Shown: piece by piece, positions 17,897 through 34,523 of the stretch
How positions within the stretch are numbered: the stretch's first letter is position 1
How the letters are laid out: each line of letters begins with the position of its first letter
Source of the DNA: Candidatus Nanopelagicales bacterium
GTDB taxonomy: Bacteria > Actinomycetota > Actinomycetes > S36-B12
DNA: 37,226 nucleotides
Reading direction: 5' to 3'
NCBI GenBank assembly: GCA_017854795.1
Contig: JAFMHB010000021.1
Location: 1 to 37,226, forward strand
Position numbers and translations under genes: made by a program
The notes under the pieces: model-generated
What the model was told of the DNA's origin: nothing
Databases searched by the model: none
Seen by the model: only the letters and a program-made list of their open reading frames with translations

Positions 17897-19648
17897 ATGA
17901 AAACTTGGATTGCCGACACCCAACCTAGTGAGCGTTTTCCCATTTACACGCGCGCCAATGCTGACGAAGTTGGCCCAGAGCCGTTCACTCCGTTGAACTG
18001 GACGCTGACGTGGGAACAAGGGATGGCGCCAGGAACAGCCGACGCCTGGATCGCTCTCGGCACTTTTGAGCCCGATGAGTTCCTGTGGACCGAACCGGAA
18101 ACGTATGGATCATGGGGCGGCTATTTCTATAATCAGGTTTCCCTGGGTCGCGTGTTCGGTCACCGCATGCCGGGCGCTACACCTGATGCAATCGATATTT
18201 CCTTCTTCGGCCAGAACTCAACGGTTCCGCCGTATGTCCACGATCCACGCGACGACAATGAAGCGTGCTCGGTGAAACTGGGCGAGTCTTTCGGCGCGAT
18301 TCTGGGTGGAGCGCAGGAAGCGCTTGCGGCTGAATACTTAGCAAATGCCGCGAAATGGCGGGCCACTAGGCCAGACCTCTCAACAATTTCAGACACGGAC
18401 CTCGTCGAGTACGGACGTACCTCGGCCCGCTGGCAACGACCAGGTTGGGATGCGTACGCGCAGGTCGTGATTGGCGCAACGGTTGGACCGCAAATTGTGC
18501 AAGGTATCGCTGACGCGGTCGGTAAATCCGAATTAGCAATTCAAATATTTGGCGCATTGGGTGACGTCGCGTCGGCGGGAATGCCTGAGCGAGTCTGGGA
18601 TCTGTCCCGTCTAGTTCGCGGATCAGCTGAGTTAACGGCCGCATTCGACGCTGGTATGGGCGGCCTCGCCGAACGCCTCGCCGCTGAACCGACCGCGGCG
18701 CAGTTCAATTCGGAATTTGATGAATTGATTGTCATGTTCGGCCATCGCGGTGTGAACGAATGGGAGATCAGTGCGCAAACGTGGTTGATCAACCCAACAC
18801 TTGCCTACCAAATGATTGATCGTGTCCGCCGACAAGAAGATGCAATGTCACCGACCCTGCGGGCTGGCGAGTCAGCCAAGCGCCGTGAAGCTGCAGTGGA
18901 AGAACTCACCGCAGCGGTCGCTGGGGACGAAGCAACAGCAGGGTTATTGGCTGCGGGTATTTCCTCGGGTCAAATCGCATATCGACTACGCGAAGCCGGC
19001 AAAAACGCCACCGTGATGTTGATGCAGGAACCCAAACTTGCTTTCCGCGAACTGGGCCGCCGGATGCACGAGCGCGGTCACCTCACGGACCCAATGCATG
19101 TATTCCAAGTGCTGGAAAGCGAACTGGATTCATTTATCGCAGATCCAGCATCCTTCACCGAAATAACGGCAGCACGGCACGCGCAGTGGTTGACACTCGC
19201 TGAACTCGAGCCGCCCTACGTGGTGATTCGCGACCAGCCCATTCCGCCAATCAGTGAGTGGCCCAAACGCCGTCGGTTCGCCGAAGGTGAAGGTGCCGCA
19301 GTGGGAACGCAGATGAAGGGCATCCCCGGTTCACAAGGTGCGGTGACCGCCCGCACACGGGTGATCTTGGATCTTGCCGACGCTGACTCGCTACAGCCCG
19401 GGGAAATTCTTGTCTGCACTACCACCGACCCTTCGTGGGTTCCACTGTTCATGATTGCCAGTGCGGTGATCTGTGAAATCGGCGCCCAAGCCAGCCACGC
19501 GGTGATTGTCAGCCGGGAGCTGGGAGTTCCCTGCGTTGTCTCATTGGCGGGTGCGAGTACATCACTGCCAAGTGGCACGCTGGTTGAACTCGATGGATCC
19601 ACGGGCACCGTCACAGTGCTTGAATCAGCAGAGCTCGAGTCCGCATGA
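17897..19648 (+). CDS. PEP-synthase/RPH-like swivel protein without ATP-grasp domain (swivel 1)
   Basis: 583 residues. The first part begins SERFPIYTRANADEVGPEPF, matching the start of the substrate-binding domain that follows the ATP-grasp in rifampicin phosphotransferase and related PEP-synthase-like proteins. The C-terminal 85 residues are a phosphohistidine swivel domain: GSQGAVTARTRVILD, GEILVCTTTDPSWVPLF and ASHAVIVSRELGVPCV, with catalytic H534. No glycine-rich GGKG motif or ATP-grasp domain is present, and no in-frame sequence upstream could supply one. ATG 17897 follows GGAGG. Phenylphosphate synthase of Thauera also divides ATP-grasp and swivel parts between subunits, which is the closest precedent. 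The stop overlaps a histidine phosphatase gene. Confidence 0.85.
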   Translation: MKTWIADTQPSERFPIYTRANADEVGPEPFTPLNWTLTWEQGMAPGTADAWIALGTFEPDEFLWTEPETYGSWGGYFYNQVSLGRVFGHRMPGATPDAIDISFFGQNSTVPPYVHDPRDDNEACSVKLGESFGAILGGAQEALAAEYLANAAKWRATRPDLSTISDTDLVEYGRTSARWQRPGWDAYAQVVIGATVGPQIVQGIADAVGKSELAIQIFGALGDVASAGMPERVWDLSRLVRGSAELTAAFDAGMGGLAERLAAEPTAAQFNSEFDELIVMFGHRGVNEWEISAQTWLINPTLAYQMIDRVRRQEDAMSPTLRAGESAKRREAAVEELTAAVAGDEATAGLLAAGISSGQIAYRLREAGKNATVMLMQEPKLAFRELGRRMHERGHLTDPMHVFQVLESELDSFIADPASFTEITAARHAQWLTLAELEPPYVVIRDQPIPPISEWPKRRRFAEGEGAAVGTQMKGIPGSQGAVTARTRVILDLADADSLQPGEILVCTTTDPSWVPLFMIASAVICEIGAQASHAVIVSRELGVPCVVSLAGASTSLPSGTLVELDGSTGTVTVLESAELESA

Positions 19649-20358
19649 AGGTGGTTCTTCCTCCGCTTTCACCCGAGCCACCGTTTTCGGTTCGGATCCC
19701 GTTCCTTCTTCTTGCCGACGGTGTTACCCGACTGACATTGGTGCGCCATGCCCAGCAGGTGTTCCCGACCGAAGACGAGTTTGACCACACCGCATGGGAT
19801 GACCCAATATTGAGTGAACTCGGTCGGGTTCAGGCAGCTGCACTTGCAGGTGTGTTGACCGAACAGGATGTTGATGTTGTGGTGTGTAGCTCAATGCATC
19901 GGGCAAAGGAAACAGCGGAGATCATTGCGTTTCCGCTCGGGCTCACACCAGAAGTGCGTCCGGAGTTTGTAGAGATTGCCTCCTACCGCGAGCTCGAACC
20001 AGGGGTCAACCCGCAGACTCTGGTTGACCCCGAGGAATGGGCCGCGCGTGAGCAGGCCTTTTACCGCCAGGTCATGTGGGACCATATGTTTTTTGGTGAA
20101 GGTTCAGCAGAGTTCCGCGCCCGCATCATGGGGGCCATCACAAAATTGATTGCAGATTACGAAGGACAGCACATCGTCTTGGTGAGCCACGGTGGTGTCA
20201 TCAATGCAGTCATCAGTGAGATCTTGGGGATCGAAGAAGACATGTTTTTCCTTCCATCACACTGCTCGGTGAGCAGGGTGTGGATCAAGGAAGATATTCG
20301 ACGAGTGCACTCGATCAACGAGAGCCAGCATTTGCATGACGGTATCCGTACAAACTGA
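19645..20358 (+). CDS. Histidine phosphatase superfamily protein (phosphoglycerate-mutase-like)
   Basis: 237 residues. The phosphoacceptor motif is TLVRHAQQV with H35, HAQ replacing the common HGE. SELGRVQAAALAG, VVVCSSMHRAKETA and LVSHGGVINAV supply the remaining active-site residues. About 28 residues precede the first core strand, longer than usual. ATG 19645 overlaps the stop of swivel 1 (ATGA), so the two are translationally coupled. That suggests the phosphatase acts on the product or on the phosphorylated form of the swivel protein, but coupling alone does not prove this. SixA-type members dephosphorylate phosphohistidine; this protein is larger than SixA. Confidence 0.9.
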   Translation: MKVVLPPLSPEPPFSVRIPFLLLADGVTRLTLVRHAQQVFPTEDEFDHTAWDDPILSELGRVQAAALAGVLTEQDVDVVVCSSMHRAKETAEIIAFPLGLTPEVRPEFVEIASYRELEPGVNPQTLVDPEEWAAREQAFYRQVMWDHMFFGEGSAEFRARIMGAITKLIADYEGQHIVLVSHGGVINAVISEILGIEEDMFFLPSHCSVSRVWIKEDIRRVHSINESQHLHDGIRTN

Positions 20359-20392
20359 TCAGTAATTTTCTACCGAGGGGTAATATTTTTCT

Positions 20393-21601
20393 ATGACCGA
20401 GACATTGCCCCAATACACATCTGGTGCACACACCGCGATGAGTCGTGAAGAAGCAATGTCAATTCTTGATCGACTCGTGTCCCACCTTCGCAACCAGACC
20501 ACCGACATGGCCCCGGAGCAACTGAAGGTTCCGATTTCGGACTACCTGGATCAAGATTTATGGGAACGGGAAATCAGGGAGATCTTTCATGCGATTCCCT
20601 TGCCGGTAGGTACTTCCGCCGAACTCGCTAACGTCGGTGATTTTAAAACAATGCGGGTAGTTGGCAAAGAAATCATCCTTGTTCGCGGCAAGGATGGCGT
20701 GATGCGCGCGATGCTCAATGTGTGTCGACACCGCGCAATGAAACTTCTGCCCGATGGCTGCGGTAGTGCGCGCAGATTCACCTGCGGCTATCACTCGTGG
20801 ACCTATGACACCGACGGAAAACTTACGGGTGTACCCGGCGAAGATACTTTCGGTGAAGTGAACAAAGAAGATTACAGTCTGGTGCAACTGCCGTGTGAAG
20901 AACGAGCCGGTTTTATTTTTATTGGACTCACTCCCGGCAGGGACCTTGGGATCGACGCGTGGCTCGGTGAGGCGTTGCCGCACCTCGAGGCACTCGAACT
21001 GGACAAGTGCACGCACTTCACCACGAAAACACTGCCCGGTCCCAACTGGAAAGTGACCCTGGACGGTTATCTCGAGGGCTATCACTTCAGTTCATTGCAC
21101 GCAAAAACCGTTGCCCTCACCAACCACACGAACCGTATGACGCTAGATTCATATGGTCCGCACGTGCGCAATGTGTTCGCTTTGAAGACCCTTGACGCCA
21201 TGATGGAAAAACCACGTGATGAGTGGGATCCCGCGGAGGCGATGGGCCTCGTGTACTGGGTATTCCCCGGTATGGCGATCGCCGGCGGATTGCGCGAGCG
21301 CACCGTCATCTCGATCATGCTTCCAGGTGACTCATGGGGTGAGTCGATGACCTGGCAGACAACGCTGCTGCGCACGGCGCCGCAGACCCCCGAAGAGTTT
21401 CTGGAGGCAGAGAAAACCGCCGATTGGTTCTTCGCTGCATTCCGTGACGAGGACTACACGGCGCAGACCGACGTGCAGAATGGCCTCGCTTCCCTCGCTG
21501 ATAAACACATGACCATCGGTCGTAATGAGATTGCCGTTCAGCACGCCCATGAAACGATTCGTCGACTGTTAGCCCATGAGCCGGTTCACGGCCCTCGATA
21601 G
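20393..21601 (+). CDS. Rieske non-heme iron oxygenase, alpha subunit
   Basis: 402 residues. The Rieske cluster ligands are C111, H113, C131 and H134 (CRHRAM...CGYHSW). The mononuclear iron site is DGYLEGYHFSSLH, with H231 and H236; the carboxylate that bridges the two centres is E228 instead of the usual Asp, as reported for carnitine monooxygenase CntA. An acidic third ligand probably lies in RDEDYTAQTD. ATG 20393 has GAGGGG only at a long spacing, and TAATAT six bases upstream would allow a leaderless message. No reductase gene is near; the ferredoxin at 9450 is a candidate partner. It could hydroxylate or demethylate an amine, aromatic or terpenoid substrate. Confidence 0.93.
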   Translation: MTETLPQYTSGAHTAMSREEAMSILDRLVSHLRNQTTDMAPEQLKVPISDYLDQDLWEREIREIFHAIPLPVGTSAELANVGDFKTMRVVGKEIILVRGKDGVMRAMLNVCRHRAMKLLPDGCGSARRFTCGYHSWTYDTDGKLTGVPGEDTFGEVNKEDYSLVQLPCEERAGFIFIGLTPGRDLGIDAWLGEALPHLEALELDKCTHFTTKTLPGPNWKVTLDGYLEGYHFSSLHAKTVALTNHTNRMTLDSYGPHVRNVFALKTLDAMMEKPRDEWDPAEAMGLVYWVFPGMAIAGGLRERTVISIMLPGDSWGESMTWQTTLLRTAPQTPEEFLEAEKTADWFFAAFRDEDYTAQTDVQNGLASLADKHMTIGRNEIAVQHAHETIRRLLAHEPVHGPR

Positions 21602-21613
21602 TGTGAATTCATA

Positions 21614-21631
21614 GGTAGTCCTAGTTTGACA
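21614..21631 (+). promoter_or_regulatory. Candidate shared operator, site B, before swivel 2
   Basis: GGTAGTCCTAG (21614-21624) matches GG-N3-TCCTA(G/T), within TAGG-TAGT-CCTA. The longer GTCCTAGTTTGACA (21618-21631) agrees at 12 of 14 bases with GTCCTAGTTAAACA at 32379-32392. It includes TTGACA, but no good -10 lies 17 bases beyond it; TAATGT (21636) is closer. Confidence 0.45.
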
Positions 21632-21675
21632 GTGGTAATGTGCGGTTCTCACCCACTCACGAAATGGACGTTCAC

Positions 21676-23391
21676 ATGTCAGAAAAGGCGTGGCTCACTG
21701 ATACCGAGCCCAGCGTAAGGTTCCCGATTTTCACCCGGCTCAACGCCGCAGACGTGATGGCTGATCCGATAACACCGCTCGGTGCAACAATGTGTTGGAT
21801 CCCCAACGTACTTCCCGGCTGGTCATCCGGTTACGTCGAAGACGTGTGTTTCACGGCCGACGAACTCACCGAAGAGTCCGCCGTTGCTGGTTTCTTCTAC
21901 GGCTACCTTTACATCAATCAAAGCTCCGTCCGAGTTCTGGGAATCCGCAAGGGCATGACCGCGGACATTATCGATTCAATCTTCTTTAACTCCCCGGGAG
22001 CTCCACCCCACGTTGCTTCACCAACCGATGCCAATGAATCACTCACCGCACTGGGCGGTGCTCGTGCTGGCTGGGTACTCACCACTTCAAAGTTTGAGGG
22101 CGCCGACGAAGACTCCGCGATCGCTGATGATCTGCGTCGAAACCGCCCTAACCTCAAGGCCATGAGCAACCGCGCCTTGGTCGCGCGAGCCCGTTCCGTG
22201 ATGCCATATGAACGCTTGGCTTGGCGCTCCGAACAGATCGGTGCCTCGAATGCGGCGGTCGGTCCAGCCGTTGCCGGTCAAATCCTGGGTGCGGACAAAG
22301 CCCATCTGCTGATCACAATCCTTGGTTACGCAGGTGACGTCGAATCTGCAGCACCCACCTATTCACTGTGGTCGCTTTCGCGCACGGTGAAGGGCAGCCC
22401 AGAGATGACGGCGCTGTTTGACAGCGGTGTGGACAAGGTTGCCGCTCAACTCCCGACCGCCACCGGTGGCTTCTGGAATGAGTTCGCTGCATTTATTGCA
22501 GAGTTCGGATACCGCGGTCCCTCCGAATGGGATCTAGGAACCGAGTCATGGGAGTCCAAGCCATCACTTGCACTCGCGTTGGTCGACAAGATGCGTCAAC
22601 TCGAAGACTCCGAATCACCTTCGGCAAAGCAGGCACTACACGCTGCGGCTACCGACCAGGCGATGCTCGAGGCTACGGAAGGGATGGACGCTGCAACGGA
22701 GGCAATGTTCCGTGGAGCTATTGGTTCGGCTCGACGTTTCGCCGGTTGGCGTGAAAGTGGAAAGTCATCCTGTATCAAGATCATGAACGAAGCCCGGATG
22801 GCCTTGATCGAATTGGGTAGCCGCCTTGCAGCAAACGGTGTCCTCGACGACTCGCGACAGATCTTCATCGCACTGGACAGTGAACTGGATGCCCTCGCAC
22901 TCGGTGAGAACACCCTGCTACCGAGTATCCGCGAACGCCAGAGCGCATGGTTGGAACTCAAAGACCTTGAAGTTCCTACTTTCCTGGACAGTGCAAAGCC
23001 AATCCCACCAATATCGGAAATACCTCGCAAGGGTTCAGTCGATGTTGAACGCGCAAAGGTCGGCGACATTTTCAACGGAGCTGCTGCATCACAAGGTGTG
23101 GTCGAGGGTCGTGCGCGGATCATTCTTGGCACCGACGCTATTGGTGAATTCGAGCCCGGTGAAATTTTGGTTGCACCCCAGACCGATCCGTCATGGACAC
23201 CGCTATTCATGGTGGCCTCAGCGGTCGTGGTTAACACCGGCTCAATGGCTTCCCACGCAATGATCGTTGCTCGCGAACTCGGTATCCCGTGTGTTGCCGG
23301 CTTGCCAGGCGCGACCAAGATGTTCAAATCAGGCGATCTGCTGCGAGTTGACGGCGCCAAGGGCACCATCGAGGTTCTCGAGACCGTTTAG
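21676..23391 (+). CDS. PEP-synthase/RPH-like swivel protein without ATP-grasp domain (swivel 2)
   Basis: 571 residues, paralogous along its whole length to swivel 1 (KAWLTDTEPSVRFPIFTRLN against KTWIADTQPSERFPIYTRAN). Substrate-domain-like region first, then a swivel domain with GEILVAPQTDPSWTPLF and GSMASHAMIVARELGIPCV. The catalytic His is residue 527 counted from ATG 21676. No ATP-grasp or PEP-binding barrel is present. ATG 21676 aligns with the start of swivel 1; ATG 21664 and GTG 21640 are in frame and no clear ribosome site decides. The Rieske gene lies between the two paralogues. Divergence between the two in the middle region suggests different substrates, or a heteromeric pair. Confidence 0.84.
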   Translation: MSEKAWLTDTEPSVRFPIFTRLNAADVMADPITPLGATMCWIPNVLPGWSSGYVEDVCFTADELTEESAVAGFFYGYLYINQSSVRVLGIRKGMTADIIDSIFFNSPGAPPHVASPTDANESLTALGGARAGWVLTTSKFEGADEDSAIADDLRRNRPNLKAMSNRALVARARSVMPYERLAWRSEQIGASNAAVGPAVAGQILGADKAHLLITILGYAGDVESAAPTYSLWSLSRTVKGSPEMTALFDSGVDKVAAQLPTATGGFWNEFAAFIAEFGYRGPSEWDLGTESWESKPSLALALVDKMRQLEDSESPSAKQALHAAATDQAMLEATEGMDAATEAMFRGAIGSARRFAGWRESGKSSCIKIMNEARMALIELGSRLAANGVLDDSRQIFIALDSELDALALGENTLLPSIRERQSAWLELKDLEVPTFLDSAKPIPPISEIPRKGSVDVERAKVGDIFNGAAASQGVVEGRARIILGTDAIGEFEPGEILVAPQTDPSWTPLFMVASAVVVNTGSMASHAMIVARELGIPCVAGLPGATKMFKSGDLLRVDGAKGTIEVLETV

Positions 23392-23413
23392 TTATTCATT
23401 AGTCATTCGGGTT

Positions 23414-23442
23414 ACTGGCCCGGCTACAGCAGCTGGGCCAGT
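23414..23442. terminator. Hairpin between convergent swivel 2 and OYE-like genes
   Basis: ACTGGCCCGGCT, loop ACAGC, AGCTGGGCCAGT gives a 12-pair stem with one G-T wobble. It contains the stop codon of the minus-strand flavoprotein and lies 22 bases past the swivel 2 stop. No T-run follows on either strand, which is common for actinobacterial terminators. It could serve both directions. Confidence 0.6.
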
Positions 23443-25397
23443 TCGAATGCTTGCTTGGTTGCGAAGGTCATTCGTCGTGGCGCCCAAGCGTCACCGAGTA
23501 GGTGGGTTTGTGGGTGGTACATGGATACCGACCGATACAACGCGTCGTTGCCAACCCCACCGGTGACAAGTACTACCGAGTCAATTCCACCGACGGTGAA
23601 CCGGCGACGGCTGTAAGCATTTGCGAACTCAACCTCATTGGTTCGAATCTCGGTGGCGACAGCCATCTGCATAATTTCCACACCGACCTCGTCCAAACTT
23701 TCAAACATGGCACCGGCGGAGTACTTGCCCACAAGTGGTGAAGGCCCAGGTGTTTCAAAGGCCAGCACGACCTCATGGCCTAAATGTGCGAGGTGGTCTG
23801 ACACCGTCAGGGGAGCTGGGCCGTCGTCGGCTGCGATCACGAGTACGCGATTCCCCAGAGGTTGGGTAACCCCGCGAATAACGGCGTCGGCCCCGAAAAC
23901 GTGCGGAAGGTACTCCCCAGGAATCCCGGGGCGCCTAGCGTGCGCGCCCGTAGCAAATGCAACGACGTCGAAGTTGCCGTCCAGAATTGAGCGCACCGAA
24001 GCGCGTCGACCAAGGTAGGTATTGACCCCCAGTCGTGGCAGTCGGGCAGCCGCCCAGTTAATCCAGTCTTGGTAGGTCGGGTTCGCCCGCAGTTGGGCGG
24101 CAATAGCGAAGCGACCACCGAGTTCGGCTTTTTCCTCCCACAACTCAACAACGTGTCCGCGCTCTGCGGCGTTGGCAGCGAGTTCCATCCCGGCTGGACC
24201 ACCACCAACAACGAGTAGGCGTAAAGCTTTTTCACTTGTCGTTATGGGTGGCAGTGATTCACGACCCGCATGTGGGTTAACTCCACAGCCAAAGCTCAGG
24301 CCCTCCAACGTGTATCGGTGGATGCAGTCATTAAGTGCGATACATGGCCGAACTTCTTCGGGTCGCCCGTCAAGTGTTTTGCGCAACCATTCGCGGTCTG
24401 CGATCAGTGCACGGACCATGCCCACCATGTCGGCGTTTCCATCTGCGATTACTTTCTCGGCGGTCTCCGCGTGCACAACCCGACCCACATAAAGTACGGG
24501 GAGATTCGTGACCGCTTTGGCTTCGCCACACATTTGTGCCCACGCAGCTTCCGGGTAGATGCCGTGCTGCAGGTAGGTGATTGCTCCCCAGTTCCCGCCC
24601 ATGTCAAGATTGAAATAATCGACGGTTCCATCGGCCTCAAAGCTTTGCATTAAACGCAGGCATTCATCGAGTCCGTAACCACCGTCCATGTCTTGATCGA
24701 GTGCGAGGCGTAGACCAAATGTGATTGGCCGATCAACACGTGCACGAACTCCGTCGGTGATCTCTTGCAAGAAGCGTCGCCTGTTGGCGTAGGAGCCGCC
24801 GTATTCATCGGTTCGCGTATTGGTCAGCGGGGAAAGAAACCACTCAATAATGTCGTCGTGATTACTGTGAAGTTCGATTGAGTCCGCACCGGTTCGTGCT
24901 GCAATTACGGCTGACTCAATGTATTCGTTGATAACCCACTGCACTTCATCATGGTTCATAACGTGCACACCGCGGTGGTCCAAGAATCCGGAGAAGGTGG
25001 CGGAGGGAGCACTGGGCATGCCGCCCTGTTGGAGAAGTTGAATGCCCATGTATCCACCGGCAGCGTGAACGCGATCAACGAAGTGCGACATCCGGTCGTG
25101 AAAGAGGGGGTGTCGGAAGTTTCCATCTTCCTTTCCCAGGGCGCCGATACCGGTGGGTTCAAAGCCGGGAATCTGCAGATGCCTGACATGGCATGGTGGA
25201 CCACCGATCCATTGGAATCCGTCTTCTACGCGGGAGAGCCAATAGTCGAGCATGGCTTGGAATCGGGTGTCGTCACCGGTGAGGGATCCCGCGCCCCCAC
25301 CGTGGGTCGGCACGAATAATCGATGCGAAAGGTTCATGGTGCCAACCGTGATCGGCTGGAGGACCGCCTGAAGTGGGCTGTTTGAGGGAGTGGTCAC
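23424..25397 (-). CDS. OYE/trimethylamine-dehydrogenase-like flavoprotein (FMN, Fe-S, FAD)
   Basis: 657 residues, the length of 2,4-dienoyl-CoA reductase and trimethylamine dehydrogenase relatives. Residues 1-345 form the FMN barrel (GYMGIQLLQQGG, ELHSNHDDIIEWFLSP, TRTDEYGGSYANRRRF). The Fe-S segment CIALNDC...GC has C352, C358 and C371, spaced as in trimethylamine dehydrogenase (C-x2-C-x2-C-x12-C), but the second ligand is L355. The FAD/NAD half starts with LLVVGGGPAGMELA (GGGPAG at 398-403). The start is GTG 25397 with no obvious ribosome site. It may reduce a conjugated double bond or oxidise an amine; the HxNHDD active-site variant and missing Cys make assignment uncertain. Confidence 0.9.
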   Translation of the reverse strand: MTTPSNSPLQAVLQPITVGTMNLSHRLFVPTHGGGAGSLTGDDTRFQAMLDYWLSRVEDGFQWIGGPPCHVRHLQIPGFEPTGIGALGKEDGNFRHPLFHDRMSHFVDRVHAAGGYMGIQLLQQGGMPSAPSATFSGFLDHRGVHVMNHDEVQWVINEYIESAVIAARTGADSIELHSNHDDIIEWFLSPLTNTRTDEYGGSYANRRRFLQEITDGVRARVDRPITFGLRLALDQDMDGGYGLDECLRLMQSFEADGTVDYFNLDMGGNWGAITYLQHGIYPEAAWAQMCGEAKAVTNLPVLYVGRVVHAETAEKVIADGNADMVGMVRALIADREWLRKTLDGRPEEVRPCIALNDCIHRYTLEGLSFGCGVNPHAGRESLPPITTSEKALRLLVVGGGPAGMELAANAAERGHVVELWEEKAELGGRFAIAAQLRANPTYQDWINWAAARLPRLGVNTYLGRRASVRSILDGNFDVVAFATGAHARRPGIPGEYLPHVFGADAVIRGVTQPLGNRVLVIAADDGPAPLTVSDHLAHLGHEVVLAFETPGPSPLVGKYSAGAMFESLDEVGVEIMQMAVATEIRTNEVEFANAYSRRRFTVGGIDSVVLVTGGVGNDALYRSVSMYHPQTHLLGDAWAPRRMTFATKQAFELAQLL

Positions 25398-25474
25398 GGC
25401 AAACTATGGCATAAAGATTGTGCTCGGGACGAGTGAAATCGATAAAATCGTCTAGACAACTTTCCTACCTTATT

Positions 25475-25506
25475 CACAACCCTTGGGGTGGGACCCAAAA
25501 GTTGTG
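25475..25506. promoter_or_regulatory. Large imperfect dyad in the divergent OYE/PPDK control region
   Basis: CACAAC-CC-TTGGG, centre GTGGGA, CCCAA-AA-GTTGTG gives 11 of 13 symmetric pairs. It lies in the 215-base gap between the divergent flavoprotein and PPDK operons, the largest gap in the window. A possible promoter for the right-hand operon, TTGTGG (25502-25507), 16 bases and TATAAA (25524-25529), overlaps the right arm, so binding here would control it. Confidence 0.5.
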
Positions 25507-25550
25507 GGTTTGGCGCATTCCTATATAAATGGGGGCGGGTTATGCAATAG

Positions 25551-25563
25551 TAGGACTTCCTAT
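25551..25563 (+). promoter_or_regulatory. Candidate shared operator, site C (TAGGACTTCCTA dyad)
   Basis: TAGGA-CT-TCCTA is a perfect dyad and contains GGACTTCCTAT, a match to GG-N3-TCCTA(G/T). It lies 49 bases before the start of the PPDK-operon accessory gene and downstream of the predicted promoter, a typical repressor position. Confidence 0.45.
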
Positions 25564-25612
25564 TAATCGGTCAGCCGCTCAAACGGCGGCCCTGTGGTGC
25601 GGAGAATCAAAA

Positions 25613-26227
25613 ATGAGCGAGTTGGTTTTGGCAGAAGGAGAGCGCGATGCTCTCGTGACCTTGGTGATTCGGGGAATGGCCCGTGGCGAAGTCTCACCTG
25701 AACAGCAGGCTTTGGCCGACGCTGGGTTGATTCTGATCAAAGGCCCGATCATGATGCCGACTCCTGCTGGAACCGCATTCGTTGCGGAAAGCTTGCGACT
25801 GCCCGATGACGCCCCCGAGCGCGAGCGCATCATGGCCACCTTTCACCGCTTTCTTCCGGTCAACCGCTCGCTACGTGATCTGTGCACGGCGTGGCAGGTC
25901 CGCCCTGATGGCAGCGTCAATGACCACTTGGATGAGAACTACGACGCCGACATCCGGGATCGTCTTGACGACATCGACGATTCGGTGGCCCCGCTCCTCA
26001 AGCGATTCACCGAGGATATTCCTCGCATGGCCGGGTACCGCGAAAAGCTCACGGTGGCCCTGGCAAAACTCGATGACGGAGAAGACACTTGGCTCGCATC
26101 GCCGCTCATCGACTCGTACCACACAGTCTGGATGCACCTTCACCAAGAACTTATCTTGACCATTGGCATGTCTCGCAAGGAAGACGAGGAGCTTGAGGAG
26201 CGTCTCATTGCGGAGAGCGGGGCGTGA
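25613..26227 (+). CDS. Unknown protein coupled to the PPDK-like gene
   Basis: 204 residues, no family I can name. The first 65 or so look like a small winged-helix or helical domain: ALADAGLILIKGPIMMPTPAGTAFVAES resembles the recognition-helix/wing pattern of MarR-like proteins (shown cut: ALADAGLILIKG, MPTPAGTAF). The remainder is acidic and helical (NDHLDENYDADIRDRLDDID, HLHQELILTIGMSRKEDEE). ATG 25613 has GGAG seven to eight bases upstream. Its stop overlaps the GTG of the PPDK-like gene, implying stoichiometric or coupled production. It may be a subunit, a regulator of the phosphotransfer protein, or a transcription factor for the operon. Confidence 0.8.
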   Translation: MSELVLAEGERDALVTLVIRGMARGEVSPEQQALADAGLILIKGPIMMPTPAGTAFVAESLRLPDDAPERERIMATFHRFLPVNRSLRDLCTAWQVRPDGSVNDHLDENYDADIRDRLDDIDDSVAPLLKRFTEDIPRMAGYREKLTVALAKLDDGEDTWLASPLIDSYHTVWMHLHQELILTIGMSRKEDEELEERLIAESGA

Positions 26228-28809
26228 GCCCAACAAATCGACAAGGGCCGGTAGATGACGTTGGTCTTGTCCCATTCGGTCGTGGCATAGAGCGCGGGCT
26301 TGATGCCCGTTCACTGTGCACCCGCGGGCTTGAGCTAGAAACCCTTGCTGGCCTAGGCCTTCCTGTGGGCGCAGGGCTAACCATTCCCGTTCCCAACGTC
26401 CCTGGTTTCACCTCGCCTGACCGGGCCAAAGCAGCGATGAACTTGCTAGAAGATATCTCTGGCCGAGAGATCAGCACCACCACCGAGACCGGTGGCCTCG
26501 TACTCCTACGGTTGAGCGCAAGTGCACCGGTCGCTGCTGCTGGCCTACCTCCGGACCTGACCTGCTTGGGACTTAAGCGGAGTGTCATCCCTGATGATCT
26601 CGGTACCAAAGCACGAAGTGACTTAGGCGTTGCCTGGTGGAAAACCGCTGCCTTTATTGCCGAGCATGCCTTGGGAGTTCCCCTTGAAGACTTGGGCTCA
26701 CTGGATTTTGACTATCCGGATCTTGTTGAGCGGGTTGAACCGTTTCGGCGGTTGTGCGAGGAGAAAGGTTCATCGCCTTTTCCCACCAAGAGAAGTGAGC
26801 AGGTTGCTGCCGGTGCCCAAGCAATGTTGGTGCGCTGGAATTCACCGCGGGCAGCGCGTGCCCGACGCAAACAAAACCTTCCCGCTGATCTTCCATTAGC
26901 CCTCCACCTTGAAACAATTGTCGTTACCGAACATGATGCAGAGGGACATGGTTTCGCTATGTCGCGTGACATGGAATCGGGACAGTTCGCTCCCAACGGA
27001 TTATTCCGACATGGCTTCCGCACCGGCAGTGAGCGTCAGCAAATTGGTCATCCATTAAGTAAATTGCCTAACGGAGTGGAGATGTTGACCGGCGTGTTAG
27101 CCGAACTTGAGGGCCGGCTACGCAGTTCGGTAATTGTCGACTTTGAATTCGGTCCTGACGGCCTCGCACTTGTCGGGTTGGAACAAATGCGCAGGTCTAA
27201 TGCGCGGGCCTCAACCAGCCTCATCGTTGATCTGGTTACACGTGGAATCACCAACGAAACCGATGCAGTGCAAGCGGCAGAACCCGCGCACGTGCTCGAG
27301 TTGCTTCACCCCCAACCTAAACTCACCGGCGACGAAATCCCTTTTGTTTCTGGTTTAGCCGCATCCCCTGGAGCAGCGGTCGGGCGCATTGCAATCACCA
27401 GCGAAAGTGCTGTTGATTTAGCGGAGGCTGGTGAATCAGTTCTTCTTGTCATGAGCGAGACAACCCCGGGTGATTTACCAGGCATGATGGCTGCAACCGG
27501 GATCCTGACCGTCAACGGTGGCTCCGCCTCGCACGCGGCAGTGGTTGCTCGAGGAATGGGTCGACCAGCGATCTGTGGTGCAGGAGGGCTGCGCATTGAT
27601 CAGGAAGCGCAGACGATCACAGCGGGTACGCATGTTTTGAACGCGGGAGACGTTATCTCGATCGACGGTGCATCGGGTGTCGCCTACGTGGGTGAATTAA
27701 CAATTGAACCCCCGGTTCCTTCACCTAGTCTGACCACACTGCTGGGTTGGGCCGATGACCTGCGAAGGCTGGGTGTTCGGGCCAATGCCGACACGGGAGC
27801 CGACGCTGCTATTGCTATGGATAGTGGAGCTGAGGGAATCGGTTTGTGTCGCACCGAACATCAGTTCATGGGCGATCGCTTGCCGCTCGTGCGCCGAGTA
27901 ATTCTTTCCCACGACTTCGATGCTGAAGAAGCCGCACTAGCAGCCCTCGCCGACGCCCAACGCGAAGATTTTCGAGATCTATTACGCGCTGTTGGTGACC
28001 GGCCGGTGACCGTTCGATTACTTGACGCACCGATGCACGAATTCCTCCCCGCCAGTGAGGAGCATGCAGAAGATGAAAATCAAGCCCGGATGTTGGAACA
28101 CATGCACGAAGAAAATCCAATGCTTGGAGTTCGCGGTGTGCGGCTTGCACTGATGCACGAGGGTTTGTACCCCGCCCAGGTTGAGGGACTTTTTAATGCG
28201 TGGGTCGATGTCGTCTCCGCGGGTGAAGCCCGACCTGAGCTTGAAGTAATGATCCCCTTGGTGTCCATCCCGGACGAATTGCTCATGATGCTCCGATTGA
28301 TCCGCCGGGTGAACCAGGAAGTGTCATCGCGCACAGGAATGGTGATTCCGTTTAAAATCGGCACAATGGTTGAGACCCCGAGGGCGGCATTGCTCGCTGA
28401 CCAACTCGCCCAATGGGCTGAATTCATTTCATTCGGCACCAACGATTTAACCCAACTCACATACGGCTTTTCTCGAGACGACGTTGAGCGTCGCATGCTC
28501 GGCACATACCTCTCCAAAGGACTCATGACCGCCAGCCCATTTGCTGAGCTCGACGAGTCCGGTGTCGGAGCATTGATGTCCTACGCGGTTGACAAGGCTC
28601 GATCGGTGCGGCCCGATATCAAGTTGGGCATTTGTGGTGAACACGGTGGAGACCCTTCGTCAATTGAAATCTGTGAGCGACTTGGACTCGACTATGTTTC
28701 TTGCTCACCATCCCGCATTCCGGTGGCCCGTCTAGCTGCGGCGCACGCACGCGTTGGGTCTATGAATCAGGCACCTGACGCGGCTGAAAAAAGCGGTATC
28801 GGATCGTGA
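26224..28809 (+). CDS. Pyruvate-phosphate-dikinase-like protein with eroded ATP-grasp half
   Basis: 861 residues, close to PPDK length. The swivel domain is intact with H437 in GGSASHAAVVARGMGRP. The PEP/pyruvate barrel is also intact: IGLCRTEHQFM, NPMLGVRGVRLALMHEG, KIGTMVETPRAALLAD, FISFGTNDLTQLTYGFSRDD and the catalytic Cys, C804, in GICGEHGGDPSS. The N-terminal half still aligns in outline (LAGLGLPVGAGLTI, LLRLSASAP, GFAMSRDMESGQ), but the GGKGANL loop is replaced by DARSLCTRGLEL and the INAQGEDVVAG strand by FRHGFRTGSERQ, so ATP binding looks lost or altered. GTG 26224 overlaps the preceding stop. Possible roles are a PEP-dependent phosphodonor resembling PTS enzyme I, or a PPDK with an unusual nucleotide site. 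Confidence 0.88.
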   Translation: MSPTNRQGPVDDVGLVPFGRGIERGLDARSLCTRGLELETLAGLGLPVGAGLTIPVPNVPGFTSPDRAKAAMNLLEDISGREISTTTETGGLVLLRLSASAPVAAAGLPPDLTCLGLKRSVIPDDLGTKARSDLGVAWWKTAAFIAEHALGVPLEDLGSLDFDYPDLVERVEPFRRLCEEKGSSPFPTKRSEQVAAGAQAMLVRWNSPRAARARRKQNLPADLPLALHLETIVVTEHDAEGHGFAMSRDMESGQFAPNGLFRHGFRTGSERQQIGHPLSKLPNGVEMLTGVLAELEGRLRSSVIVDFEFGPDGLALVGLEQMRRSNARASTSLIVDLVTRGITNETDAVQAAEPAHVLELLHPQPKLTGDEIPFVSGLAASPGAAVGRIAITSESAVDLAEAGESVLLVMSETTPGDLPGMMAATGILTVNGGSASHAAVVARGMGRPAICGAGGLRIDQEAQTITAGTHVLNAGDVISIDGASGVAYVGELTIEPPVPSPSLTTLLGWADDLRRLGVRANADTGADAAIAMDSGAEGIGLCRTEHQFMGDRLPLVRRVILSHDFDAEEAALAALADAQREDFRDLLRAVGDRPVTVRLLDAPMHEFLPASEEHAEDENQARMLEHMHEENPMLGVRGVRLALMHEGLYPAQVEGLFNAWVDVVSAGEARPELEVMIPLVSIPDELLMMLRLIRRVNQEVSSRTGMVIPFKIGTMVETPRAALLADQLAQWAEFISFGTNDLTQLTYGFSRDDVERRMLGTYLSKGLMTASPFAELDESGVGALMSYAVDKARSVRPDIKLGICGEHGGDPSSIEICERLGLDYVSCSPSRIPVARLAAAHARVGSMNQAPDAAEKSGIGS

Positions 28810-28882: not shown

Positions 28883-30415
28883 ATGACATCGGCGACATCC
28901 GCGCTCAGTGTGCGAAACGCAACGAAGATCTTCGGGGCGCAAGTAGCACTGGACAACGTCAGTATTGATGTTGCGGCAGGAGAAGTCCGAGCGTTAGTTG
29001 GCCAAAACGGCTGCGGTAAATCAACTTTGATCAAGATTTTGGCTGGTTTTCACGAACCTGAGCCAGGTATCGAGGTCCTCGTCGGGGGTGAGTCACTAGC
29101 TCTGGGAGATCCGATCGCAAGTGAGGCAGCCGGTTTGCGTTTTGTACACCAAGACCTTGGGCTTGTGGGTAATCTCGACACCGTTGACAACTTGGCATTG
29201 GGTCAGGGTTACATCACGAATGCGACCAAGACAATTAGTTGGCGCAAGGAACGGGCAAAGGCTCGCGAGGCGTTAGCAGCCTTGGGCTACGAAATTAACG
29301 TGAGCATGCCAGTCGCGGGACTCCAAATGTCAGAGCGAACAGCGGTCGCAATCGCTCGGGCTATGTCAGAGCGTGGAACACCGCCAAAGATGCTGATTCT
29401 TGATGAACCCACAGCAAACCTTCCTGGTCCAGAGGCACAACGTCTGTATCAACTCGTTCGTCGGGTCGCAGACTCAGGTGTAGCCGTGTTGTTCGTCTCA
29501 CATCACTTCGACGAAGTATTCGAGATGGCCGAGTCGGTGACAGTGTTGCGCGACGGGAAATTGATTGAAACTCGTGCGGTTGCTGGTTTGACCGAAGATG
29601 AACTTATTGAACTTGTTGTCGGGCGCAAACTTGAAGAGCACGACAAGGGTGAAGCTGCTGACCGTGAACACGGGACACAGGTGTTGCAACTCTCCGGCGT
29701 TGGTGGGCGCAATGTTTCGGGTATGGATCTCACTGTTCATCGGGGTGAGGTGGTCGGAGTTGCCGGAATCACTGGTTCCGGTCGGGAGGAAGTTGCCGCA
29801 CTAGTTTTTGGTGGTCACGAAAGGTCCGGTGAAATTACCGTCGATGGAAAGACTCTTCCCCAGAACCGACCCGACATTTCGATCGATCGGGGCGTCGCTC
29901 TTGTTCCCGCTGAACGGCACGCTAATGCATCACTACTTGATCAAACATTGCGTGAAAACATCACCTTGGTTGATCCAGGGCGACACATGTCCTTAGGTAT
30001 CTTGCGCCGCAACCCGGAGAAAGCCGACGTTCGAGTGTGGTTGGACCGTTTGTCGGTTAAGCCAAGTGGGCAAACGGAATACAACATGAACCAGCTGTCC
30101 GGTGGAAACCAGCAGAAAGTTATCTTGGCGCGCTGGCTTCGACAAGAGCCAACGGTATTGGTCCTCGATGAGCCCACCCAGGGAGTTGACGTTGGCGCAA
30201 AGGCTGACATCCACACTCTCGTCGATGAAGCCGCAGCGCAAGGAGCGGCGGTTCTTGTGTGTTCCACCGACCATGAAGAACTTGTTCGAGTCTGCGACCG
30301 CGTAGTGATCATGCGCCGTGGCAAGGCAGCGGAAATTCTTCGCGGAGACAAAATCACCGCCGAGAACATCACCGCGGCAACGATCGGTCGCGACACGGCA
30401 GAACCTGCGGCTTAG
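28883..30415 (+). CDS. Sugar-type ABC transporter ATPase with two nucleotide-binding domains
   Basis: 510 residues, RbsA/MglA type. Domain one has Walker A GQNGCGKST (40-48), Walker B MLILDEPTANL and a degenerate signature LQMSERTAVAIARA in place of LSxGExQ. Domain two has GITGSGREEVAAL as its modified Walker A, an intact LSGGNQQKVILARWL signature and VLVLDEPTQGVDVG. This asymmetry is typical of the carbohydrate-uptake-2 family. ATG 28883 follows AGGGAGG. It energises the permease encoded next. No periplasmic binding protein or second permease is nearby, so the substrate (a sugar, polyol, nucleoside or other hydroxylated compound) is unknown. Confidence 0.94.
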   Translation: MTSATSALSVRNATKIFGAQVALDNVSIDVAAGEVRALVGQNGCGKSTLIKILAGFHEPEPGIEVLVGGESLALGDPIASEAAGLRFVHQDLGLVGNLDTVDNLALGQGYITNATKTISWRKERAKAREALAALGYEINVSMPVAGLQMSERTAVAIARAMSERGTPPKMLILDEPTANLPGPEAQRLYQLVRRVADSGVAVLFVSHHFDEVFEMAESVTVLRDGKLIETRAVAGLTEDELIELVVGRKLEEHDKGEAADREHGTQVLQLSGVGGRNVSGMDLTVHRGEVVGVAGITGSGREEVAALVFGGHERSGEITVDGKTLPQNRPDISIDRGVALVPAERHANASLLDQTLRENITLVDPGRHMSLGILRRNPEKADVRVWLDRLSVKPSGQTEYNMNQLSGGNQQKVILARWLRQEPTVLVLDEPTQGVDVGAKADIHTLVDEAAAQGAAVLVCSTDHEELVRVCDRVVIMRRGKAAEILRGDKITAENITAATIGRDTAEPAA

Positions 30416-30425
30416 TTAAAAAGCT

Positions 30426-30469
30426 GAAACCAAAAAAACCAAAAAACGAAACAACCAAACGACACCACG
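30426..30469 (+). other. T-free A/C-rich leader between ATPase and permease
   Basis: A 44-base stretch without T on the coding strand, mostly A with C (AAACCAAAAAAACC and similar), occupies more than half of the 78-base gap. Such RNA cannot form stable pairs with itself and may be a ribosome stand-by or processing site. The permease ribosome site just beyond is weak (GAGCGGAT). Confidence 0.4.
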
Positions 30470-30493
30470 TCGCCGAGACCTAGAGCGGATCCC

Positions 30494-31474
30494 ATGTCTG
30501 AAATACAAGAAGTAGCAGCCCCTCGCCGCCGCATCAACTTTGGCTTCGACAAGTACAGCGGTATCTACGTGTGGGCGTTGCTGGTATTGGTCTTCGCTTT
30601 ATGGATCCCGGACCTGTTCCTGCAGACCAGCACCGTCAAGCAGGTTTTGACTTTTCAAGCTATTAGCGCGATCGTCGCATTGGGCTTGATCCTGCCGGTC
30701 GCAGCAGGGGCGTTCGATCTGACAATTGCGGGAACGCTCACAGTGTCGGTGTGTTTCACCGCGTGGGCCCTGACTAACGGCTACGGCATTGTTGTAGCAG
30801 CAGGTGGATCAATTCTCATCGGTATCATCATTGGTCTTGCCAACTCGTTAGTGGTTGTCAAACTAAAGGTGAACTCGTTTATCGGCACCCTCGGCATGAG
30901 CAGCATCCTGATTGCCATTGCCTACATGATCACCGACAGTTCCCAGATCGTGCTGAGCACTTCGGGCTACGCACCATTTTTTGAGTTTGCCCGGACCGAA
31001 TTATTCGGCTTGCCACTTTCGGTCTACTATGCCGCGCTTATTGCATTAGTTTTCTGGTGGATCTTGGAGTACACCCCGGGCGGTCGCTATCTCTATGCGG
31101 TGGGTGGCAACCCGGTCGCCTCGCGCCTTGCCGGGGTTCGTGTTGGTCGCGTCACCATGATCGCTTTCATCGCTTCGGGTGCCTCCTCAGCTTTCGCGGG
31201 AATCGTCTACTTGGCCACTATCGGCACGGCCACACCGGACAGTGGCAGCGGCTATCTGCTGCCAGCGTTCTCCGCGGTCTTCCTCGGTGCCACCCAAATC
31301 CGACCAGGGCGCGTGAACGTACTCGGAACACTTGTTGCAATTTTCCTTCTTGCCACCGGCGTGACCGGGCTGCAACTTGCGGGTGCACCTTCTTATGTAA
31401 CCCAACTGTTCAATGGCGCGGCTCTTATTGTCGCCGTTGCCTTGGCGGCCAGGACGGCTCGACGCCAAGCCTGA
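30494..31474 (+). CDS. ABC transporter permease, ribose/branched-chain (BPD_transp_2) type
   Basis: 326 residues and strongly hydrophobic, with about eight to ten membrane segments (for example YVWALLVLVFALWIPDLF and AISAIVALGLILPVAAGAFD). The family-specific GGRYLYAVGGNPVASRLAGV loop, which contacts the ATPase, lies near residues 195-214. GAFDLTIAG corresponds to the GGIDLSVG segment of RbsC. ATG 30494 starts a soluble N-terminus of about 20 residues. It works with the upstream ATPase. It ends 27 bases before the convergent ThuA 2 gene. Only one permease gene is present, so it probably forms a homodimer. Confidence 0.93.
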   Translation: MSEIQEVAAPRRRINFGFDKYSGIYVWALLVLVFALWIPDLFLQTSTVKQVLTFQAISAIVALGLILPVAAGAFDLTIAGTLTVSVCFTAWALTNGYGIVVAAGGSILIGIIIGLANSLVVVKLKVNSFIGTLGMSSILIAIAYMITDSSQIVLSTSGYAPFFEFARTELFGLPLSVYYAALIALVFWWILEYTPGGRYLYAVGGNPVASRLAGVRVGRVTMIAFIASGASSAFAGIVYLATIGTATPDSGSGYLLPAFSAVFLGATQIRPGRVNVLGTLVAIFLLATGVTGLQLAGAPSYVTQLFNGAALIVAVALAARTARRQA

Positions 31475-32392: not shown

Positions 32393-32456
32393 TTTTCACT
32401 TAGTGTAGTCTTCGCTGGTCATTTACTGCTTCATTCAATCGAACCGGGAGACCTTG

Positions 32457-33458
32457 ATGGCCACACCCACGGAAGCCCTCGAGGCGGTCATGCCAACCAC
32501 TCGTGAATTGGTCTTGGATCTACATCGACGTATGGTGCGGATTCGCCGTTTTGAAGAGCGTGCCGGAAAACTCGTCGAGTCCGGGGACATGCCAGGTTTC
32601 CTGCATTTGTACGTCGGTCAGGAAGCAGTCGCGGCAGGTGTGTGTTCAGCTCTCACAGATGCAGATCAAATCACCTCCACGCATCGTGGCCACGGTCACG
32701 CAATTGCTAAAGGCGCAGATTTCCGCCCGATGTTCGCGGAGCTTTATGGCAAGACCACCGGATACTGCAAAGGCCGTGGTGGTTCAATGCATATTGTCGA
32801 CATGAACCGTGGCATGCTGGGTGCAAATGCGATTGTTGGCGGGGGCATCCCTATTGCGGTCGGAGCTGCATTCGCATCGCAGTATCGCGGTGACGGAACT
32901 GTCGCAGTGTCGTTTTTTGGTGACGGTGCTACCAATATTGGTGCATTCCACGAGTCGGTCAACATGGCTGCGGTTTTGAATTTGCCGGTTATTTTTGTGA
33001 TTGAGAACAATGGCTACGCCGAGTTCACACCACAAGATCGGCACATGAAATTGACAGACATTGCTGACCGCGCCAGTTCCTACGGCATTCCCGGCGTAAT
33101 CGTTGACGGAATGGATGCTTTGGCCGTTCGCGACGTTGCACTTGTTGCTATCGAGCGGGCCAAGCGGGGCGAAGGACCAACGCTCATTGAAGCCAAGACG
33201 TACAGGTACTTCGACCACCAAGGTATTAAGGGAATGCGGATCCTTTATCGCGATCCGGCTGAAGTGGAAGCGTGGAAAACCCGCGATGCCATCAACCTCA
33301 TTGAGGCGATCGGTGTTGAGCGTGGCCTGGTCAGCGCGGAGGAATTCGCAGAGATTTGGGCACAAACCGAAGCCGACATCGAAGACGGTATCGAGTTCGC
33401 GCGGAACAGCCCTGACCCTGATCCAGTAGATATTCTCGACGACGTCTACACCAGTTAA
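32457..33458 (+). CDS. 2-oxoacid/acetoin dehydrogenase E1 component, alpha subunit
   Basis: 333 residues. The thiamine-diphosphate motif GDGATN (155-160) ending in ENN (183-185) is complete. YVGQEAVAAGV, THRGHGHAIAKG and the GRGGSMHIVD segment are typical of E1 alpha of the acetoin/pyruvate dehydrogenase branch. ATG 32457 has GGGAG at a six-base spacing; the TTG one codon earlier is not needed. With the two downstream genes it forms a complex that decarboxylates a 2-oxoacid or cleaves a diketone-like substrate and passes the acyl group to E2-bound lipoate. The length and GGSMH motif lean toward the acetoin type, but substrate remains open. Confidence 0.93.
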   Translation: MATPTEALEAVMPTTRELVLDLHRRMVRIRRFEERAGKLVESGDMPGFLHLYVGQEAVAAGVCSALTDADQITSTHRGHGHAIAKGADFRPMFAELYGKTTGYCKGRGGSMHIVDMNRGMLGANAIVGGGIPIAVGAAFASQYRGDGTVAVSFFGDGATNIGAFHESVNMAAVLNLPVIFVIENNGYAEFTPQDRHMKLTDIADRASSYGIPGVIVDGMDALAVRDVALVAIERAKRGEGPTLIEAKTYRYFDHQGIKGMRILYRDPAEVEAWKTRDAINLIEAIGVERGLVSAEEFAEIWAQTEADIEDGIEFARNSPDPDPVDILDDVYTS

Positions 33459-33533
33459 TAAGCTGCTTTATTCAACCCAATACATTCAACCCAAGCCCAA
33501 TGCATGCCCGATGAAATCCCGGAGGGACTCCCA

Positions 33534-34520
33534 GTGACAACGCGTGAACTCACCTACGTAAAGGCCTTCAACGAGGGCATGCACCAGGTTATGGCCGAAG
33601 ACCCCGATGTCTTTCTTATCGGTGAGGACGTTGCGGGCTACGGCGGGGTGTTCCACATGTTTGACGGACTCCTCACCGAGTTTGGTGGTACCCGCGTTGT
33701 TGACACACCTATTTCCGAGCAAGCAATCATTGGACTTGGCGTTGGTGCCGCAGCGCGAGGCTTACGCCCCGTTTGCGATCTAATGTTCATGGACTTCGTC
33801 GGTGTTGCAATGGACCAGATTTTCAATCAAGCTGCAAAAATGAAATACATGTTTGGCGGTAACGTTTCTGTACCGCTGACCATCACAACTGCCGGTGGCG
33901 CCGGGATGTCAGCTGCAGCCCAGCACAGCCAAAGTCTTGAGGCATGGCTCGCTCACATTCCCGGACTCAAAGTCGCAATGCCCGCCAGCCCATACGACGC
34001 TAAAGGACTTATCGTCGGCGCGATCCGCGACGACAACCCCACCATCGTTGTGCTCAACAAAAAAATGCTGGGAGTGAAGGGCCCTGTGCCCGAAGAGTTG
34101 TACTCGATCCCATTTGGTGTGGCCAATGTTGTCCGCGAAGGTAGCAACGCAACAATCGTCGCAATTGGGCGAATGGTCGTTGAGGCAGAGAAAGCCGCAG
34201 CTAACCTTGAGGCAGCTGGAATCTCGGTCGAAATTATTGACCCTCGAAGCGTTCAGCCACTCGACATCGACACGATCCTGACATCGGTGAAGAAGACACA
34301 CCGAGTTCTCGTCGTCCATGAAGCGGTCGAGTTTGGCGGAATCGGCGCTGAGATTTCATCACAGATACAAGAGTCCGCATTTGATTACCTTGATGCACCT
34401 GTGACCCGACTTGCGGCTCCATTTGCACCCGTCCCTTTCGCTCCGATTTTGGAGAACGCATACGTACCGGATGCTCCACGCATAGAAGCCGTCGTCCGCC
34501 GACTCCTCGAACGGAAGTAA
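33534..34520 (+). CDS. 2-oxoacid/acetoin dehydrogenase E1 component, beta subunit
   Basis: 328 residues with transketolase pyrimidine-binding and C-terminal domains. LIGEDVAGYGGVF, DTPISEQAIIGLGVGAA, AAQHSQSLEAWLAHIPGLKV, VEIIDPRSVQPLD and VVHEAVEFGGIGAEI are hallmark segments of E1 beta. The start is GTG 33534, preceded by GGAGG eight bases away; ATG 33504 in frame would add ten residues and place the ribosome site inside the gene. A short palindrome GGGACTCCC overlaps that site. It lies 75 bases after E1 alpha, in a gap with a doubled ATTCAACCCAA (33470-33480 and 33484-33494), and three bases before E2. Confidence 0.93.
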   Translation: MTTRELTYVKAFNEGMHQVMAEDPDVFLIGEDVAGYGGVFHMFDGLLTEFGGTRVVDTPISEQAIIGLGVGAAARGLRPVCDLMFMDFVGVAMDQIFNQAAKMKYMFGGNVSVPLTITTAGGAGMSAAAQHSQSLEAWLAHIPGLKVAMPASPYDAKGLIVGAIRDDNPTIVVLNKKMLGVKGPVPEELYSIPFGVANVVREGSNATIVAIGRMVVEAEKAAANLEAAGISVEIIDPRSVQPLDIDTILTSVKKTHRVLVVHEAVEFGGIGAEISSQIQESAFDYLDAPVTRLAAPFAPVPFAPILENAYVPDAPRIEAVVRRLLERK

Positions 34521-34523
34521 CAC

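Follow-up and report, generated by a model that had tools for sequence, protein, structure and literature searches.

The window, a stretch of 37,226 nt from a Candidatus Nanopelagicales bacterium, a freshwater actinobacterium (contig JAFMHB010000021.1), contains three genes for phosphohistidine swivel proteins, swA, swB and dkW, together with a companion gene, cpW. The forward-strand gene swA (17897..19648) encodes a putative kinase half with an RPH-type substrate domain and a swivel (SHAVIV) but without ATP-grasp domain. Its stop overlaps by 4 bases a gene for a branch 1 histidine phosphatase (19645..20358, forward; PF00300, 4e-34), a candidate for taking the phosphate off later in the pathway. 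A gene for a Rieske oxygenase alpha subunit (20393..21601, forward; PF00848/PF00355) separates swA from swB (21676..23391, forward), which encodes a second putative kinase half of the same layout (swivel SHAMIV); its start was taken as 21676, and the longest ORF opens at 21640. Between swB and cpW, on the reverse strand, lies a gene for an OYE-type flavin oxidoreductase (23424..25397; PF00724); in another genome, G054, a molybdopterin oxidoreductase gene occupies this place (L156:8350-10383). The ORF of cpW opens at 25529, and ortholog starts correspond to Met29, giving a gene at 25613..26227 (forward). Its stop (26227) overlaps the start of dkW (26224..28809, forward), which encodes a PPDK-derived putative phosphoryl donor.

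Directly downstream of dkW are forward-strand genes for the ATPase and permease of a sugar-type ABC importer (28883..31474; PF00005, PF02653), which by synteny lie near dkW in relatives too. They are followed on the same strand by genes for the E1 alpha, E1 beta and E2 components of a 2-oxoacid dehydrogenase (32454..35924; PF00676, PF02779, PF00198), conserved as neighbours of dkW in several genomes, and for a second histidine phosphatase (35931..36575; PF00300). The cluster holds four phosphatases in all (one HAD, one tyrosine-type and two histidine-type), as would be expected if phosphate is taken off later. Genes for the ABC importer and for ThuA, xylose-isomerase-like, SDR, Rieske, AMP-ligase and E1/E2 proteins recur near dkW in distant Actinomycetes, which indicates a conserved catabolic cluster. 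Its substrate, at a guess, is a glycosylated or oxygenated natural product.

The initial annotation had placed three swivel proteins at 17897, 21676 and 26224, none with a clear ATP-grasp domain, and this description held: the ORFs are present, and no product matches PF01326 (ATP-grasp) in Pfam even at E<=10. In the profile searches it had proposed against PF01326, PF00391 and PF02896, dkW matched the latter two, and swA and swB matched PF00391 only (E = 1.9e-20 with motif ASHAVIV and 2.9e-25 with motif ASHAMIV, respectively), without PF02896 (PEP barrel) at E<=10. The two are paralogs, as had been claimed, with 39% identity, and the last ~340 aa of each align with the substrate and swivel part of RPH/PRK06241. 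The predicted structure of swB (pLDDT 88.7) matched residues 317-867 of RPH, which comprise the rifampin-binding and swivel domains (Z 28.6, rmsd 3.7, 486 aligned), and six RPH structures ranked first in a Foldseek search with this model; swA was assigned the RIF-binding-type fold and the swivel through its identity to swB. Taken together, the Pfam results, the RPH alignment and the swB superposition indicate that swA and swB are RPH minus the ATP-grasp, and they could be small-molecule kinase halves that lost the ATP-using part. An ATP-grasp concealed in their first 450 residues, which had been named beforehand as fatal to the proposal, is ruled out by Pfam at E<=10 and by the structure, in which this region is the helical RPH substrate domain. 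Sequence identity to RPH is about 20%, however, and the scores against the rifampin phosphotransferase model NF041857 (106.7 bits for swA, 140.8 for swB) are far under its cut-off of 999. Contig C8 of the same genome carries two further swivel-only paralogs, swC and swD, in tandem beside VOC and SDR genes (L015:8430-12064); they are 85% identical to each other and 48% to swB, and are remote from any donor gene.

The third swivel protein, dkW, matched PF02896 (5e-73) and PF00391 (7e-19). Its alignment to solved PPDKs spans residues 17-842, so the ATP-grasp region (residues 1-345) is degenerate, not absent, and is followed by an apparently live swivel (370-492) and PEP barrel (505-842). At K22, R92, Q335 and R337 (C. 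symbiosum numbering), dkW has R, S, G and E. K22, Q335 and R337 are lost in all of the 25 dkW-type sequences with letters at these positions, and R92 is lost in 24 of the 25. Wherever a dkW-type sequence covers them, R561, R617, E745, N768, D769 and C831 of the PEP site and the swivel histidine are all retained. The ATP-grasp residues are kept in seven PPDK sequences, as they are in 58 sequences of the VadK type discussed below. In PPDK, the ATP-grasp residues are described as catalytic (Ye et al., 2001, as cited in PMC13400623); crystal structures of the K22A and R337A mutants exist, judging from structure titles among the Foldseek matches. The suggestion that this protein kept swivel and barrel with an eroded ATP-grasp was thus borne out by Pfam, by the PPDK alignment and by the residue table of 25 relatives.

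The dead ATP-grasp of dkW-type proteins shows a conserved pattern of its own, and dN/dS values from one close pair (ATP-grasp 0.07, swivel 0.06, barrel 0.03) point to purifying selection. The dead grasp is therefore a maintained domain, not one in decay, and with conservation across families the same values rule out that dkW is a decaying pseudogene. It has the three-domain layout and the swivel and barrel residues in common with PPDK, but it lost the catalytic ATP-grasp residues, has cpW, and scored 657.6 bits against TIGR01828 (PPDK equivalog), under the cut-off of 843. In a tree, dkW-type, VadK-type and PPDK sequences formed three separate well-supported groups, on long branches and with the branching order unsure. 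Against NF004531 (VadK/short PPDK, cut-off 456) dkW scored 132.5 bits, with the barrel present and the grasp dead, and against TIGR01417 (PTS Enzyme I, cut-off 341.7) it scored 128 bits; Pfam found no HPr-binding domain in it. Like Enzyme I, it combines a PEP barrel with a swivel histidine donor and would serve several acceptors. Unlike Enzyme I, it is of PPDK ancestry, and its acceptors would be RPH-like kinase halves, not HPr/EII.

The companion cpW, which the initial annotation had missed, matched no Pfam or NCBIfam family and is homologous to Rv1126c, the partner of VadK (Rv1127c); an Rv1126c-like gene next door is thus a feature that dkW shares with VadK systems. A paralog with 36% identity, cp27, adjoins a donor gene, dk27, on contig C27 of the window genome. 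We aligned about 100 companions, drawn from Actinomycetota and from plasmids. His 133, 198 and 205 in long-ORF numbering, or 105, 170 and 177 counted from 25613, are invariant; many of these loci were retrieved with patterns containing His 133 and His 198, and His 205 was in no pattern. Most companions adjoin VadK-type genes in Mycobacterium, and the clades of the companion tree track donor type. The predicted structure of cpW (pLDDT 95) has a MarR-like winged helix at the N-terminus (Z about 9) and a four-helix bundle, and, going by topology alone, the invariant residues would lie close to one bundle end. Foldseek gave no match to this model at E<=0.001, and VIA-align gave only MarR-like winged helices and generic four-helix bundles. 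Some companion lineages have no donor beside them: the companion-like genes at L086, L093 and L072 lie near dapA and RNase J. The companion may therefore act outside donor operons too. We also considered a third type of donor beside such donor-less genes, but the scanned neighbours were SURF1, dapA, RNase J or leuA-like genes.

The short PPDK Rv1127c of M. tuberculosis, which has lately been given the name VadK, uses ATP to phosphorylate itself at His422, and virulence depends on it (PMC13400623). Rv1126c is its operonic partner, co-expression of which raises the solubility of VadK, and 2 M salt separates the two. According to the same work, VadK interacts with enzymes of the methylcitrate cycle; it was interpreted as a histidine kinase with a regulatory role, and swivel acceptors do not figure in that description (PMC13400623). 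All 58 VadK-type sequences that we aligned keep R92, E323, Q335, R337 and the swivel histidine and are without barrel. VadK and dkW are alike in being PPDK-derived, with a swivel histidine of their own and an operonic companion of the cpW family, but VadK kept the ATP-grasp and lost the barrel, whereas dkW kept the barrel and lost the ATP-grasp. The two types are thus complementary reductions of PPDK. The window genome holds both, since dk27 is a short PPDK with ATP-grasp and swivel but no barrel (674 bits against NF004531, above the cut-off). The triad of companion, short PPDK and 'PEP-utilizing enzyme' recurs on plasmids of Rhodococcus, Mycobacterium and Diaphorobacter.

Several observations were made on these loci in passing. 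On contig C27 (L016:6801-9091), a gene for a 232-aa protein with a weak swivel is followed by one for a 524-aa protein without Pfam match; homologs of this pair adjoin companion genes in Acidimicrobiia (L048, L055), and the pair is possibly an acceptor with swivel and substrate parts on separate proteins. In M. lepromatosis (L067), the VadK-type gene consists of two short frames beside the companion gene and is probably broken. Four records titled 'Bifidobacterium breve' (L026, L028, L035, L037) are MAGs of freshwater type with genes about 70-94% identical to Nanopelagicales ones, and their titles look wrong.

We compared the distribution of donors and acceptors across genomes. In an even draw of 297 genomes from the class, full-length swA/B-like proteins were present in all 11 genomes with dkW-type proteins and in 5 of the 286 others (Fisher p = 1e-16 by genome and 1e-8 by genus, uncorrected for kinship). 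The genes are often physically linked, and shared transfer of the gene cluster may account for part of this co-occurrence. The five exceptions without dkW belong to one family and have short ATP-grasp donors: in three of them a VadK-type gene occupies a frame of 564-580 aa, with a companion beside it in G522, and the remaining two encode several short ATP-grasp proteins within this size range. The genome of G522, a single contig, encodes 21 swivel proteins and three ATP-grasp PPDK_N proteins, each with a swivel of its own and one of them VadK-type, or about 18 acceptor-like proteins per free donor. Of the 37 genomes in a set around the window, 12 have dkW, and full-length swA/B-like proteins were found in 9 of these and in none of the other 25; the three with dkW and no full-length match (G074, G103, G041) are 91-94% complete.

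Candidate sources of phosphate for swA and swB were then sought in individual genomes. PF01326 matched only the full PPDK and dk27 in the window genome. The search for a stand-alone ATP-grasp subunit that the initial annotation had proposed thus yielded no HpeI/PpsB-like protein, but it did yield the VadK-type dk27 with its companion cp27, which, like swC and swD, had gone unnoticed before. No PTS Enzyme I was among the PF00391 matches of this genome, and we rejected it as donor. In three relatives with dkW (G014, G057, G113), no PF01326 protein was found beyond the housekeeping PPDK, and thus no VadK-type or HpeI-like donor; G720 (100% complete) has no PF01326 match at all, even at E<=10. Each of these four genomes has several swA/B-like proteins, and absence of a dedicated ATP-grasp donor, being read from draft genomes, is not proof. 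G720 has only four swivel proteins: dkW itself and three that resemble acceptors, two of these encoded no farther than about 10 kb from dkW. In this genome, no phosphoryl source for the acceptors is evident other than the PEP barrel of dkW.

These results suggest a divided, PEP-driven small-molecule kinase system, a reading that we consider probable, though well short of assured. PEP would be bound in the barrel of dkW, its phosphoryl group passed to the dkW swivel histidine and pyruvate released, the ATP-grasp being a retained but catalytically dead scaffold. The charged swivel, probably docked by or relayed through cpW, would then charge the swivel histidines of swA and swB, which would turn towards the helical RPH-like pockets of their own proteins and transfer the phosphoryl group to a hydroxyl on an intermediate of the pathway. 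The neighbouring oxygenases and dehydrogenases would process the phosphorylated intermediate before a phosphatase of the cluster strips the phosphate. A single donor may serve several acceptors. The PEP-fed phosphorelay activating a hydroxyl group that was first proposed from the DNA is thus the reading best supported by comparative genomics, with the qualification that this genome also has an ATP-fed donor; the accompanying idea of a single three-protein complex fared less well, as it leaves out the companion and does not reflect that a single donor occurs alongside several acceptors.

Parts of this scheme are familiar. Enzyme I and PPDK both move the phosphoryl group of PEP to their own swivel histidine, and Enzyme I serves many EIIs and, by itself, phosphorylates rifampicin in vitro (PMC13099321). 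Its transfer to HPr is from histidine to histidine, although HPr has another fold; for the swivel of one dikinase-family protein passing its phosphoryl group to that of another, we know of no direct precedent. In the open-access literature, we found no description of the triad of swivel protein, companion and PPDK. The closest systems are HpeHI, CreHI and PpsAB (PMC12167813), which likewise have the substrate domain and swivel on one protein and the phosphoryl donor on another, feed a catabolic pathway and, in the case of HpeI and HpeH, charge the swivel in trans. Their donor (HpeI/PpsB), however, is a stand-alone ATP-grasp protein without swivel, whereas dkW derives from PPDK, combines swivel and PEP barrel with a dead ATP-grasp, and has a companion of its own.

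The same split logic raises the question whether swA and swB are ordinary phenylphosphate-synthase subunits with an ATP-grasp partner elsewhere, since HpeH too consists of a substrate domain and a swivel (PMC12167813). We hold this to be extremely improbable. The PRK08296 models (cut-offs 578-730), our proxy for the HpeH/PpsA type by an equivalence inferred from an adjacent 384-aa PPDK_N protein, gave at most 101 bits for swA and 114 for swB, in the swivel region only, whereas the positive control L158 scored 818 bits and the true two-component pair of the same family in G054 passed. With no HpeI-like partner in the genome, these scores place swA and swB outside the HpeH/CreH/PpsA sequence family and lead us to reject an ordinary phenylphosphate synthase, the second outcome that the initial annotation had named as refuting its proposal. 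That swA and swB are transphosphorylases, moving phosphate from metabolite to metabolite with no protein donor, is very unlikely: HpeH alone does shift phosphate from 4-phosphoacetophenone to acetovanillone (PMC12167813), but it needs HpeI for net ATP-driven phosphorylation, and the genomic association with dkW would stay unexplained.

Other alternatives concern the role of dkW. It might be a pseudoenzyme or regulator, with swA and swB charged from ATP in trans by dk27 or by the housekeeping PPDK. The presence of dk27 with its own companion leaves this ATP-fed route open in the window genome alone, and VadK-type genes do lie near swivel proteins on the Rhodococcus, Mycobacterium and Diaphorobacter plasmids; the fully conserved PEP site of dkW and the four relatives that keep several acceptors without such a donor argue against it, and we regard it as unlikely. 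We give only a little weight to the possibility that dkW is itself a small-molecule kinase, its former ATP-grasp serving as acceptor pocket, and that swA and swB act independently. The strong conservation of its N-terminal domain in a new pattern, with dN/dS 0.07, would fit, as would the finding that Enzyme I of B. subtilis alone phosphorylates rifampicin in vitro (PMC13099321), but the swA/B-like proteins of G720 would be left without donor and the strict association with dkW without explanation. A small probability also attaches to a regulatory role like that proposed for VadK, in which dkW and cpW would act on metabolic enzymes as a protein-histidine kinase; the winged helix of the cpW model and the reported VadK interactions point that way, but the neighbours of dkW are RPH-like acceptors, not methylcitrate enzymes, and the association with swA/B is near perfect.

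The PEP-driven reading has a possible ATP-fed counterpart in mycobacteria. Among the best matches of swA was PRK05865 (NCBIfam, sugar-epimerase family; E = 7e-36). We take this family to be the Rv2047c type; Rv2047c has an epimerase/reductase-like N-terminus and a PEP-utilizing C-terminus. In published TnSeq data, rv1127c, rv2047c and pks12 behave alike, each being needed when mycobactin is high but not when heme is supplied, and rv2047c shares an operon with pks12 (PMC7058343); a 2012 review listed the enzymes for mycoketide reduction and phosphorylation as unidentified (PMC3318773). The TnSeq data suggest that VadK and Rv2047c form an ATP-fed pair equivalent to dkW and swA/swB, and charging of Rv2047c by VadK/Rv1126c would fit mycoketide phosphorylation. 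More tentatively, and with somewhat less than even confidence, we propose a PTS-like soluble network built from dikinase parts, in which a PEP-only (dkW) or ATP-only (VadK) donor with its companion charges many interchangeable RPH-like halves, each acting on its own small molecule, with VadK as donor and Rv2047c as acceptor, possibly the missing mycoketide kinase.

If this is true, small-molecule kinases can run on PEP by protein relay beyond the sugar PTS, and one donor can serve several pathways, for which the surplus of swivel proteins over ATP-grasp proteins in G522 may be compared. Many genes whose sole annotation is 'PEP-utilizing enzyme' would also gain a predicted function. The arrangement may extend to VadK, an enzyme of tuberculosis virulence, which would gain a concrete set of partners, together with a candidate for the mycoketide phosphorylation step.
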